DNA from: Candidatus Acetothermia bacterium
Lineage (GTDB): Bacteria; Bipolaricaulota; Bipolaricaulia; Bipolaricaulales; Bipolaricaulaceae
DNA: 5,096 nt
Direction: 5' to 3'
Assembly: GCA_003552425.1 (NCBI GenBank)
Contig: PUMC01000028.1
Coordinates: forward strand, 1-5,096
In this document: in pieces, positions 358 through 5,096 of the stretch
Layout: every line of letters begins with the position of its first letter
How positions within the stretch are numbered: position 1 is the first letter of the stretch
The notes under the pieces: model-generated
What the model was told of the DNA's origin: nothing
The model's input: the letters and a program-made list of their open reading frames with translations, nothing else
The model's database searches: none
Translations under genes and position numbers: made by a program

Positions 358-1293
358 ATGAAAACCGAACTTGCCGTCCAGGAATTCATGATCAGCCGCG
401 GCGGGACGCGCAACAAGACTCAGACGACTTATCTGAAGCATCTGCGACTATTCCAGGAATCTTTTCTCACCCTGCCCCAAACGCCGCAACCGATCCAAGC
501 ATGGCTCAACAGCTCTAAACGGTTGCGGGGCAATATGAACGAACCGTTAACACCGGAAACCATACACTCTCGCTTTCGTACACTTAGAGCATTCTACAAG
601 CAAATACACCTGTGGCATAAAAACGTCAAGGACCCCATGCCTCTGGTACGGCCGCCCAGCATGAAGCCAAAAGCTATGAGGACTTTTACGGAGAAGGAAC
701 TCTATATCATATTCATGCTTCCCCTATCATTGCGGGATAAGACCGTATGCACGTTCCTGCTTGGTAGCGGTGTCAGGGCCCAGGAATGTGCCGACCTGAA
801 GTGGGATGATGTTTACCCCGAATATGTCACCGTTAAGGGGAAAACCGGAGAAAGGGACGTGCCGATTACCGACTCCACCTATACGTTGCTCACGCGATTA
901 AGAGCGCAGAATGGAAGCGACACATACGTCTTCACTGGCAAGCGGGGGAAACTTACTTATGAAGGTATTTACAAGATAGTCCGGAGAGCATGCAGGCTGG
1001 CAGGAATAAGCGGCAGCCGCTGCTCTCCACATACTTTCAGGCACACATTTGGCACAGAATACGCATCCAGCGGGGCCTGCGACCCCAAGTCTTTGCAAGA
1101 TATTCTGGGCCACGCTGATTTCAAGACCACTCTCAGGTATATCCAGAACAACCGGAAGAGAAATATTGCCAACCACAAACTCTGCAACCCCCTGAGGCTT
1201 ATACCAGGGGCGATTCAAGGCCACCTACTCGCCGTAAATGAGGCTGAGGTGATTCTTTATAATAACTGCCTGGAGACAAAACGAGATGAGTAA
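358..1293 (+). CDS. Tyrosine recombinase / integrase (XerC/D-like phage integrase family)
   Basis: This DNA integrase of 311 residues probably recombines the element with the tRNA 3' end just upstream. The N-terminal half (about 1-100) is a helical SAM-like core-binding domain, including the segment around LRAFYKQIHLWHKN. The catalytic domain (about 105-265) carries every expected residue: Arg140 in GSGVRAQE, Lys162 in the beta hairpin GKTGERDVPI, His225 and Arg228 in SPHTFRHTF, His252 in LGHADF, and the nucleophile Tyr261 in TLRYI. The start at 358 follows GGAGGG (343-348) at a 9-base spacer. About 50 residues follow the catalytic tyrosine, more than a typical Xer tail. No arm-binding N-terminal domain of the lambda type is obvious, although repeated sites lie upstream. 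Expression is probably controlled by the repeats at 142-274. The family call is secure; the attachment site is inferred from position. Confidence 0.95.
   Translation: MKTELAVQEFMISRGGTRNKTQTTYLKHLRLFQESFLTLPQTPQPIQAWLNSSKRLRGNMNEPLTPETIHSRFRTLRAFYKQIHLWHKNVKDPMPLVRPPSMKPKAMRTFTEKELYIIFMLPLSLRDKTVCTFLLGSGVRAQECADLKWDDVYPEYVTVKGKTGERDVPITDSTYTLLTRLRAQNGSDTYVFTGKRGKLTYEGIYKIVRRACRLAGISGSRCSPHTFRHTFGTEYASSGACDPKSLQDILGHADFKTTLRYIQNNRKRNIANHKLCNPLRLIPGAIQGHLLAVNEAEVILYNNCLETKRDE
1258..1263 (+). promoter_or_regulatory. Possible -10 box inside the integrase 3' end
   Basis: A perfect TATAAT occurs near the end of the integrase gene in the stretch TTTATAATAAC. A transcript from here would start near 1270 and cover the 23-codon ORF, the hairpins at 1397-1487 and the downstream gene cluster. 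No recognisable -35 hexamer sits 16-18 bases upstream, so this could be chance. Confidence 0.2.
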
Positions 1294-1360: not shown

Positions 1361-1370
1361 GAAAGGAGGT
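1361..1370 (+). promoter_or_regulatory. Strong Shine-Dalgarno without a usual start codon
   Basis: AAAGGAGGTG is as strong a ribosome binding site as any in the window, yet no ATG, GTG or TTG lies 5-10 bases downstream. The triplet at the right distance is ATC (1374), which would open a 7-codon frame ending in TGA. GAGGTG here (1365-1370) is also complementary to CACCTC (1470-1475) in the downstream hairpin. It may be a leftover of a lost gene, a non-canonical start, or a pairing element in a leader RNA. Confidence 0.45.
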
Positions 1371-1396
1371 GCCTATCAAAACAGCACATAAAAGTT

Positions 1397-1487
1397 GAGC
1401 TGGACCGCCATCAAGGTCCAGCTCGGAAAGTGGCGAGGTGTCACCCTCTATATCTTGTTCTAAATATAGCACCTCGCTGCTTCCGAG
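1397..1487 (+). ncRNA. Two-hairpin structured region, candidate leader RNA or ncRNA
   Basis: Hairpin 1: GAGCTGGACC (1397-1406) pairs perfectly with GGTCCAGCTC (1415-1424) across an 8-base loop. Hairpin 2: 1422-1440 pairs with 1470-1487 as an 18-bp stem with a single bulged A (1429) and two adjacent G-U pairs. It continues, after a 7-base left-side bulge (1441-1447), into CTATAT (1448-1453) with ATATAG (1464-1469) and a 10-base loop. The bases CTC at 1422-1424 belong to both hairpins, so their bases compete. G-U pairs make more sense in RNA than in a DNA operator. No T-tract follows, so it is not a simple terminator. It ends 17 bases before the ribosome binding site of the next gene. I recognise no known RNA family. 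A replication or transfer origin is the main alternative. Confidence 0.55.
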
Positions 1488-1515
1488 TCAATACACACGT
1501 ACAAGGAGGTAAATC

Positions 1516-1851
1516 ATGACCACGATAATGAGCTGGGGGAACAGCGAGGGTACAAAAGGGCGCTGTGACGGCAAATGCCACTCGGCGGCCGGAGGAGTCT
1601 GCAAGTGTATGTGTGGCGGTCGATACCACGGCGCAGCTCGGCAGCCGGGTGGAGTCGAGCAGGCCGTCCGTGACACCTGGGAAGACGCCATCCAGGAAGC
1701 CGAGAAAAAAGCCCGGGATGAAGGCATGGAGCTGGACACCAGCCGTCTCCGGAAATTCATCGGATTAGAACCTGCCAACTATGCTAAAGAAGTTAACCCT
1801 GCCAACCATGAGATAGGTATTCAGTGCCGGCTGCCGCTGGAGGTGGGGTGA
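1516..1851 (+). CDS. Small Cys-rich protein with CX3CH...CXCXCGG...HG motif
   Basis: This 111-residue protein has unknown function. The N-terminal 40 residues hold a tight putative metal-binding set: Cys17, Cys21-His22, Cys29, Cys31 and Cys33 in CKCMCGG, then His38-Gly39. The middle (about 48-80) is a charged, probably helical stretch rich in Glu, Lys and Arg. The start at 1516 is fixed by GGAGGT (1505-1510) at a 5-base spacer, so the in-frame ATG at 1528 is less likely. The stop shares its A with the next ATG (TGATG), implying coupled translation. From memory, similar Cys-motif proteins occur in mobile elements of Chloroflexota-type genomes. Zinc is the likelier ligand, but the dense CXCXC spacing leaves an iron-sulfur site possible. 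It follows the structured RNA region directly and may be regulated by it. Confidence 0.85.
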   Translation: MTTIMSWGNSEGTKGRCDGKCHSAAGGVCKCMCGGRYHGAARQPGGVEQAVRDTWEDAIQEAEKKARDEGMELDTSRLRKFIGLEPANYAKEVNPANHEIGIQCRLPLEVG

Positions 1852-3055: not shown

Positions 3056-3415
3056 ATGAGCGATAGCGACCGCTTATGGAACGAGACCTGCTGCTGCGAC
3101 GATACACATACCATCAAAGAAGGCGGCAGCCATATAAACCTGGTCCAGCTAAAGAAACTGGCCGCATGGCCTTACATGGCCAGCATGAATTTCCTGGTAC
3201 CCGAATCTGAAAAATATCCCCTGGCCACCGCCGTCGTCTGCGATCGCTGCCTCCAGGACCTGAGAGAAATAAAGTATGCCGTGGCTGGAGAGCCAGATGG
3301 CAACGGCCATGCGTACTATTACCGGGTACCCATTGATGAGCTCGAGGATCCGGAATTCTACTGGCCGGACCATCATCCGGACAGAAAGGAAAGAACGAAT
3401 GGGAAACGAGCTTGA
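3056..3415 (+). CDS. Small Cys-containing hypothetical protein (119 residues)
   Basis: The start at 3056 follows AAGGAG (3041-3046) at a 9-base spacer, directly after the previous stop. Residues 12-14 are three consecutive cysteines followed by DDTH. A second pair, Cys62 and Cys65 in VVCDRCLQDL, precedes a hydrophobic beta-like stretch (IKYAVAGE). Aromatic and acidic residues follow (HAYYYRVPIDELEDPEFYW). The tail is basic. The CDRC knuckle suggests a metal site, perhaps completed by the N-terminal cysteines or His18. No signal peptide or membrane helix is seen. The last 17 bases overlap the next gene in another frame. I do not recognise a named family. Confidence 0.8.
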   Translation: MSDSDRLWNETCCCDDTHTIKEGGSHINLVQLKKLAAWPYMASMNFLVPESEKYPLATAVVCDRCLQDLREIKYAVAGEPDGNGHAYYYRVPIDELEDPEFYWPDHHPDRKERTNGKRA

Positions 3416-3572
3416 GCATTTAGTTAACTTCTGGAAAACCAGCCTGGCGGAACACCGGTTGCTAATGAGTCCATCGGCTATCTACCTGGTGGAACAGACT
3501 ATCAAACATCTCGAGGCACCGCTCGCCAAGCAAGAGCGTGTCTGGAGAGTAGAGGAATTAGAAGAGTATTGA
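3399..3572 (+). CDS. Small hypothetical helical protein (57 residues)
   Basis: The start at 3399 is supported by AAAGGA (3385-3390) at an 8-base spacer. Extending the frame upstream to 3276 would overlap the previous gene almost entirely and gives a basic sequence unlike a folded protein, so I reject that start. The product is largely alpha-helical, with LEHLVNFWKTSLAEHR and a second helix AIYLVEQTIKHLEAPL, and ends in an acidic Glu-Glu-Leu-Glu-Glu-Tyr tail. It has no cysteine or catalytic motif. The helical-hairpin look recalls the 60-residue protein at 1851 in size and style, without clear homology. The function is unknown. Confidence 0.75.
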   Translation: MGNELEHLVNFWKTSLAEHRLLMSPSAIYLVEQTIKHLEAPLAKQERVWRVEELEEY

Positions 3573-3816: not shown

Positions 3817-4086
3817 ATGCCCAGATGGTGTGAAGACGTAACGTTAGAAAACGGAACCAGGGCGATATTTTGCCACTCAGGTCGACGGCCGGAGAAGCGT
3901 TGCCATATCTGTGGAAGCCCGGCTCCGTGGTTATGTGATTATGTGCTGGAATTCGGCCTGGAGAATCCGACGTGCGGCCGTCCCTTGTGCAACGACCATC
4001 GAGTGAAGATGGGTAAATGCTTCGATTATTGCCCGGAGCATGCAGAGTTAAGCCGGAAATTAAAAGCAGGAGAAGCCGTTGGCTAG
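3817..4086 (+). CDS. Double zinc-site protein, B-box/RING-like Cys-His spacing
   Basis: This 89-residue protein is dense in metal ligands: Cys5, Cys19, Cys29 and Cys32 (CHIC), Cys40 (WLCDY), Cys53 and Cys58 (CGRPLC), His61, Cys68, Cys72 and His75 (CPEH). The spacing from residue 29 to 75 suits two zinc ions bound in a cross-brace like a B-box or RING, though ligand assignment is inference. From memory, similar short proteins with a LCD...C..PLC...CPEH pattern are common in phages and mobile elements. The start at 3817 follows AAGGGGA (3801-3807) about 9 bases upstream. The end overlaps the ATPase start by 8 bases, so the two proteins may be made together and might interact. Confidence 0.8.
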   Translation: MPRWCEDVTLENGTRAIFCHSGRRPEKRCHICGSPAPWLCDYVLEFGLENPTCGRPLCNDHRVKMGKCFDYCPEHAELSRKLKAGEAVG

Positions 4087-5053
4087 CGATATGGACATAC
4101 TGCGCCGTGCCTATGACCGTGAAAATGACTCCCGGAGCAGAGGCAAGCTCTGGGCTGCTTACCACGTGGGGGCAACCAGGTCTGACATAAACCGCCTTAT
4201 GTCCGAGGAGTTGATAACGCAATCTCACCAATCCGCTCGGATAGGCAGGCATGATTACAGCCCGGCTTTGTACCGGTTAACCGAGAAGGGACGGAGTCTG
4301 ATTTTTGCTACGACCATGGAGCGAGAATTTCAGAGGGTGCCGGCCACCGACATACTTGAGGCCATGAGTTTGATTGTCGGCTTCGACGACATCAAGCAGG
4401 CCGTTGCCCAAGCAATAGAGAGCCAGCGCAAGATTAACTTTCTCCTGGAAGGCCCACCGGCCTGCGCCAAATCGCTGATGCTGGAAGCGGTCCGCTCCAT
4501 AGTGCCGTCCGCCTACATCGCCTTTGGGTCCAGGACGTCCGCCTCCGGGCTTTCTGAAGCTCTATTCGAGCACCAGCCGTCGATACTACTCCTGGATGAA
4601 ATAGAGAAGATGCACCAGGACTGCTTTTCGGTGCTCCTAGGGCTTATGGAGAGTGGGGAAATCCTGGAAACGAAATCAAAAAAGATGAGGGGAATAAAAC
4701 TAGATACCATGGTCATCGGCGCCTGCAATAATACAGCCAAGATGCCTCCGGAATTTCTCTCTCGTTTCGCTCTACACGTCTTTTTCCCGGAGTACACCCG
4801 GGATGAATTTATTGATGTCTGCCGAGGCTTTCTCACCCGGGCCGAAAACTGTCCGGAGGACATCGCTGTCACCATCGGGCGTACCGTCTTTGACTATAAA
4901 CTGGGCGACGTTCGTAAGGCCCGTGGGGTCTGGCAAATGATGACCGCCCCGACCGAGCAGGAGGTCTATCGCGTGGTAACCCTTATGCGTAAATATAGTC
5001 GTGATAACCATTATAAACGTCAGAAGAAAACAGAAGCGAGACGGTTAGTATAG
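4079..5053 (+). CDS. AAA+ ATPase with N-terminal winged helix (RuvB/MoxR-like core)
   Basis: This 324-residue ATPase begins with a probable winged helix (about 20-80), including the wing-like segment YRLTEKGRSLIF. The AAA+ module (about 95-290) has Walker A GPPACAKS (125-132), where the usual last Gly is Ala130 before Lys131-Ser132. Walker B is ILLLDEIEK with Asp173-Glu174, sensor 1 is Asn217/Asn218 in IGACNN, the arginine finger is Arg229 in FLSRF, and sensor 2 is Arg279 or Arg282 in GDVRKARG. It should form an ATP-driven ring that remodels DNA or protein. The core recalls RuvB and related helicase-loader-like ATPases, but RuvB has its winged helix at the C-terminus, so this is not a true RuvB. 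The start is TTG at 4079, 6 bases after GGAG (4069-4072). The in-frame ATG at 4091 is too far from it. It is a candidate replication initiator, helicase loader or defence ATPase. Confidence 0.9.
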   Translation: MASDMDILRRAYDRENDSRSRGKLWAAYHVGATRSDINRLMSEELITQSHQSARIGRHDYSPALYRLTEKGRSLIFATTMEREFQRVPATDILEAMSLIVGFDDIKQAVAQAIESQRKINFLLEGPPACAKSLMLEAVRSIVPSAYIAFGSRTSASGLSEALFEHQPSILLLDEIEKMHQDCFSVLLGLMESGEILETKSKKMRGIKLDTMVIGACNNTAKMPPEFLSRFALHVFFPEYTRDEFIDVCRGFLTRAENCPEDIAVTIGRTVFDYKLGDVRKARGVWQMMTAPTEQEVYRVVTLMRKYSRDNHYKRQKKTEARRLV

Positions 5054-5067
5054 CAACGGAGGGCAAG

Positions 5068-5096
5068 ATGGAATTAATCATCAAGGTCAGGCTCCC
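5068..5096 (+). CDS. Start of a truncated downstream gene
   Basis: An ATG at 5068 follows GGAGGG (5058-5063) at a 4-base spacer, 14 bases after the ATPase stop. The visible residues are MELIIKVRLP, a beta-strand-like start. The window ends here, so no family can be named. Position and spacing suggest it continues the ATPase transcription unit and may be a partner protein. Confidence 0.6.

Follow-up and report, generated by a model that had tools for sequence, protein, structure and literature searches.

Among known systems, those that come nearest to the locus reported here are two structured RNAs and one antisense RNA. According to the report on HK022 (PMC9378689), putRNA is about 70 nt long, forms two stem-loops downstream of the early phage promoters, and carries in its stem I a bulged loop together with an RNA triplex. 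The report on Tn916 (PMC11658703) gives 341 and 452 nt for the active stretches of canT, with several predicted stem-loops, while that on pMV158 (PMC4485353) presents RNAII as an experimentally shown antisense RNA of 48 nt with an 8-nt U-rich stretch at its 3' end. In this study we analysed a stretch of DNA of 5,096 nucleotides (referred to as the window, always at its full length), in which a double hairpin at 1397-1487 occupies the roughly 220-base gap that separates an integrase gene from the small gene leading the set downstream, both on the plus strand (Table 1).

The plus strand of 1397-1487 folds to -46.4 kcal/mol, compared with -22.6 +/- 3.0 for its shuffles (z -7.87; 0/200 as low), and the minus strand to -42.6 kcal/mol (z -5.74; again 0/200 as low). 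When folding z was scanned along the whole window (91-nt segments taken every 25 nt, 201 in all, with 40 shuffles for each; z averaged -0.46, with an sd of 1.39), the minimum of all 201 segments was found at the segment starting from 1401 (z -7.95), followed by the segment from 151 (z -5.74) on the opposite side of the integrase gene. Within the window, hairpin 1 is the sole perfect stem of at least 10 bp whose loop is 3-8 nt long, the shuffles giving 0.043 such stems per window. Hairpin 2 is limited by CTCGGAA (from 1422) and TTCCGAG (to 1486), and includes a 6-bp apical helix, CTATAT/ATATAG, below which 7 bases are unpaired; owing to the two adjacent G-U pairs its stem is unbroken on the plus strand only and is interrupted by an internal loop on the minus strand. 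The earlier note, made from the letters alone, had described both elements, the perfect 10-bp hairpin as well as the 18-bp stem with one bulged A, two G-U pairs and a 6-bp apical helix, and every one of these is present. The fold of 1397-1487 is genuine and not a product of chance, and the data support a strong structure upstream of the gene cluster that resembles an RNA and favours one strand. A similarity of 1409-1424 to 5079-5094 was dropped, being short and one among many weak repeats.

The same note had proposed that the two hairpins cannot both form completely, as in a switch. The sharing of CTC (1422-1424) on which this was based is real, though worth three base pairs only, and the two hairpins coexist at -46.4 kcal/mol, the energy of the full hairpin 1 together with hairpin 2 lacking three pairs; handing CTC over to hairpin 2 gives -43.5, a cost of 2.9 kcal/mol, and hairpin 2 alone gives -30.2. 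Each state loses three pairs only and both hairpins are therefore present either way, so that the exchange of CTC, across a gap of 2.9 kcal/mol with the hairpins together, amounts to three bases of branch migration. When 1361-1530 is folded, the shared bases are split, 1422 pairing with hairpin 1 at 0.87 and 1424 with hairpin 2 at 0.87. As to the alternative partners suggested for CACCTC (1470-1475), this motif and GAGGT (1506-1510) lie exactly where they had been placed, and the orphan GAGGTG exists, at 1366-1371 and not at 1365-1370. Between the CACCTC arm and the ribosome-binding site (RBS), the expected pairs were 0.05 or fewer in 9/9 folds, those with the 5' arm blocked included, and the duplex of the arm with the region of the orphan motif (1294-1396), -19.8, was equalled by 4.5% of 1000 shuffles.

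Table 1. Features of the window around the double hairpin.
Feature	Position	Strand	Remarks
Tyrosine recombinase (integrase) gene	358..1293	+	PF00589, E 2.7e-27
TATAAT, end of integrase gene	1258..1263	+	Possible -10 for the downstream operon; poor -35
Orphan Shine-Dalgarno-like sequence AAAGGAGGTG	1362..1371	+	Usable start codon after it not seen by eye
Hypothetical antisense RNA, ~65-70 nt	1386..1456	-	Would end at hairpin 1; ordinary tail, score 0.80
Hairpin 1	1397..1424	+	Arms 1397-1406/1415-1424; 10 pairs without mismatch around an 8-nt loop; -20.1 kcal/mol by itself
Hairpin 2	1422..1486	+	Stem of 18 pairs with a single bulged A and two G-U pairs side by side; -30.0 kcal/mol by itself
Sigma-70-like promoter candidate TTGACT-17-TATATT, TG before -10	1463..1491	-	In 3' arm of hairpin 2; inferred start ~1456
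RBS AAGGAGGT of gene starting at 1516	1503..1510	+	
First downstream gene (ORF1516)	1516..1851	+	111-aa Cys/His-rich protein MTTIMSWGNSEG...; without Pfam family
AAA ATPase	4079-5053		Pfam MCM, AAA, AAA_2 and AAA_5 above cut-offs; ClpA/ClpB models far below theirs

The window starts with an apparent tRNA 3' end (T-arm and acceptor end, recognized by eye; no complete tRNA was listed by ARAGORN). Judged from this terminus and from the integrase gene, the window would appear to cover one end of a mobile element that has integrated. At E 0.001 the integrase has 235 related proteins besides itself, the few organism names among the 119 listed being a Dehalococcoidales and a Desulfobacterales bacterium. 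In the interval separating the tRNA end from the integrase gene, directly after a TATAAT at 161-166, lies an inverted repeat at 169-222 with 18-nt arms of 89% complementarity, of which the surroundings (160-235) fold to -30.7 (z -5.8); the integrase gene is flanked on both sides by the two lowest-z segments of the scan. A 23-codon frame, MSKQNKLNAARIPTGYRWKRESD, at 1286-1357 overlaps the integrase stop and is followed, by eye, by the orphan RBS at 1362-1371. Another frame of 22 codons, starting with TTG at 1395 and running through the hairpins, was seen by eye and dropped with nothing backing it. The count of TATAAT in the window, 3 against 2.2 expected, is at the level of chance, and a scan of 1150-1516 detected no plus-strand promoter of at least 8/12 inside the gap.

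The ORF1516 protein belongs to a set of 74 proteins at E 0.001 (its own copy counted), in which the named relative is from a Dehalococcoidales bacterium. The family pattern, MTTIMSWGNSEG...C...CH...C.C.CGG..H, is without Pfam or NCBIfam match, and comparison with PHROGs gave a marginal match only (E 0.0088), to phrog_6842, whose function is unknown; relatives were also found on viral contigs (L001/L098, L097, L100 and L102). ORF1516 is the first in a series of short reading frames on the plus strand. For the AAA ATPase, 593 proteins were obtained at E 0.001 including itself; among the 120 listed the closest are 82-86% identical, and the named relative is a Deltaproteobacteria bacterium. It could possibly serve as the replication or remodelling ATPase of the element.

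The most economical reading, which we adopt tentatively and at less than even confidence, is that the double hairpin is a cis-acting intercistronic element that insulates or stabilises the neighbouring transcripts. Here we infer transcription, processing and a protective role: the plus-strand transcript would form two adjacent hairpins, coformed, persistently folded and probably coaxially stacked, which would shield the two ends created by processing, 3' on the integrase mRNA and 5' on the operon mRNA, and the integrase message would thereby be insulated from the small-gene operon with the RBS of the next gene left largely accessible. For this reading speak the computed strength, position and modelled accessibility of the fold: the z value is the lowest among the sampled segments, the plus strand folds better than the minus strand, the helices coexist, the gap lies between two plus-strand genes, and the Shine-Dalgarno (SD) sequence of the next gene is mostly open in three folds, being unpaired on average at 0.58 (1294-1560), 0.59 (1358-1560) and 0.63 (1390-1560). 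In addition, the consensus scan listed no plus-strand intrinsic terminator at hairpin 1 or 2 (tail scores 0.04 and 0.65), and termination on this strand was dropped as an explanation, the U-tract being absent. Against it stands the fold of 1361-1530, in which the SD bases 1507-1510 pair with 1371-1374 at 0.73-0.78, a helix absent from the minimum-energy folds of the SD-access analysis; furthermore, a DNA site would give a similar appearance, and the double hairpin is missing at the loci L006 and L011 and, by reading, also at L001/L098, L097, L100 and L102.

These loci came from a search for homologous leaders, and no such leader was reached by protein, DNA-pattern, leader-DNA or covariance-model searches. 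With the integrase as a single sequence against IMG/VR, 0/4 stretches were obtained; with an alignment of 22 integrase sequences 5/23 stretches, of which L006 alone was close (55%); and in GTDB genomes 4/32, of which L011 alone was close (62%). Behind the integrase frames the first 90-nt segment below -25 kcal/mol appeared 440 bases on in L006 and 221 bases on in L011, and no segment near -46 was detected downstream of the integrase in either (90 nt, step 30). Of the other proteins of our window, only frame 3399-3572 had a match in L006, a weak one (42% over 36 residues), and none had a match in L011. A single-sequence search with ORF1516 gave 1/23, L001 (50%), and an alignment of 27 sequences gave 0/31, as well as 0 in 395 genomes of one phylum, which is probably not the right one and provided no positive for reference. 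The DNA motif CxCMCGG detected 6 loci, 4 of which were read as ORF1516 homologs (L097, L098, which is the L001 contig, L100 and L102), L099 and L101 being set aside as unrelated longer proteins; in phages and plasmids no ORF1516 protein was found. At L001 the ORF1516 relative has a start codon overlapping the reading frame that precedes it, and at L097, L100 and L102 a comparable gap upstream of the relative was not seen by eye. As far as these sequences go, the absence in L006, L011, L001 and the others says that the double hairpin is not a fixed companion of the integrase or of ORF1516. The relatives are distant (L001, 50%), and so their lack of it has no bearing on conservation in close relatives; the close relatives of ORF1516, 70-80% identical, were compared as proteins, and the N-terminal extensions of ORF1516 relatives, checked as a guide to leaders, offered nothing usable. 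With an alignment of 20 AAA sequences, only L017 was close over the full length (55%) among 80 of at least 507 loci, and this 17-kb locus has no match to the other proteins of our window.

At the level of nucleic acid, the exact DNA pattern of hairpin 1 hit 4 viral contigs, which we took as unrelated, and a pattern of hairpin 2 gave 0. The leader DNA matched 9 phage records with a single 26-base match each (E 0.8) and no plasmid, while comparison with 7 records gave three short matches, two of them of 17 and 14 bases; the best leader-DNA match (L103), which falls inside a longer reading frame, was put down to chance and dropped. A single-sequence covariance model was run on 100/106 sources (105 loci plus the window, leaving aside L004, L095, L096 and L103-L105) and gave 6 matches at E 10. 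Two of these are the window itself and a weak self-match on its minus strand; L002 accounts for two more (best E 0.023), and L005 and L003 for a single one apiece, these three loci having been preselected by the hairpin 1 pattern. Against 8 records the model gave 0. Even at E 10, Rfam (release 15) gives no match within 1280-1560, in agreement with the earlier note, which knew of no fitting RNA family, and its only match across the window at E 1, on the minus strand at 1-32, is sub-threshold, with 21.2 bits where the gathering score is 68; a riboswitch of known class was dropped on this negative result.

Among the other explanations, an antisense cassette is unlikely in our estimate. A minus-strand RNA starting from the 1491-1463 promoter candidate would end at hairpin 1, pair with the operon leader, block the 5' arm of hairpin 2 and alter expression of the next gene, as in plasmid copy control. 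The candidate (10/12 match, 17-base spacer, TG) is the sole site of at least 10/12 in the window, and it faces the sole perfect 10-bp stem, which is terminator-like on the minus strand by the consensus scan. Sites of at least 10/12 occurred at 0.56 per shuffled window, or 0.04 with TG, and when the gap 1294-1515 was shuffled 3000 times, such a site was present in a fraction of 0.021, or 0.001 with TG. Blocking of 1391-1456 or 1397-1456, mimicking the antisense RNA, led the 3' arm to pair near the first codons of the next gene. However, the promoter was noticed after the fact, the 10/12 site is common when TG is ignored, the totals of promoter-like (5 against 5.0 by chance) and terminator-like (7 against 6.7) sites in the window are at the chance mean, and the tail score of hairpin 1 on the minus strand, 0.80, is ordinary, being matched by 36% of positions; the re-pairing is modestly above shuffles, since the duplex of the 3' arm with these codons (-23.7) was equalled by 2.7% of 1000 shuffles and duplexes elsewhere in the window reach -23.5. 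Its extension to a new small antisense-RNA module of subsurface (Dehalococcoidales-type) integrated elements, in which a backward promoter within a hairpin arm would drive an RNA that ends on the neighbouring hairpin and refolds the leader, with the freed 3' arm pairing with the first codons, we consider quite improbable.

It is likewise doubtful that the locus acts as DNA, its palindromes binding a regulator or a recombinase (10-bp arms, 8-bp spacer) with the RNA fold as a by-product. Such a site would account for the perfect palindrome of hairpin 1 with its 8-bp spacer next to the integrase gene, and for the further long inverted repeat 169-186/205-222 across that gene, but not readily for the asymmetry of hairpin 2, with its bulged A, G-U pairs and 7 unpaired bases under the apical helix, nor for the better folding of plus-strand than of minus-strand RNA; moreover, the window is without a second perfect 10-bp stem. 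Distinctly unlikely is a nascent-RNA antitermination element, in which, by analogy with HK022 put and Tn916 canT, the hairpins would bind the polymerase and carry transcription past terminators in the operon: two adjacent stem-loops within ~90 nt, one with a bulged stem, head the gene row of a probable mobile element, but Rfam, the sole sequence comparison made, was negative, and the single plus-strand terminator candidate of the window falls within the AAA gene, terminator candidates as a whole being no more numerous than chance would give. A riboswitch or translational switch, in which CTC sharing and anti-SD pairing would toggle the next gene, is very improbable: complementary segments do exist, but they compete for three base pairs only, the CACCTC arm and the SD share 0.05 pairs or fewer, without control of the RBS in the computed folds, and the hairpins form together instead of in exclusive states that alter RBS access. 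On the fold results a switch is thus possible, yet not supported.

A strongly structured leader beside an integrase, known here from one sequence, would be a natural control point, and operon control next to the integrase in integrated elements of such uncultured bacteria may be little studied; in the open-access literature searched, outside which most subscription journals lie, no report on a Dehalococcoidales/Dehalococcoidia integrase with prophage or mobile elements was found. We regard pMV158 RNAII, HK022 put and Tn916 canT as analogues, none of them being claimed as the family of the double hairpin. RNAII (PMC4485353) resembles the putative antisense RNA in being a short countertranscript with a hairpin, encoded where two genes within an operon of a mobile replicon leave a gap (48 nt against the proposed ~65-70 nt), but it is a demonstrated RNA, whereas here a promoter-like site and a weak tail are found, and the gene that follows encodes a replication initiator there and a Cys-rich protein here. 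With putRNA (PMC9378689) the locus shares two stem-loops of comparable extent (~70 nt there, ~90 nt here), and differs in that put stem I has the bulged loop and triplex, while here no antitermination target was found, the sequence having been compared via Rfam only. The active stretches of canT (PMC11658703), 341 and 452 nt, exceed the ~90-nt structured core of the double hairpin, and what the two have in common is that each is probably a cis-acting structured RNA within an integrated element.
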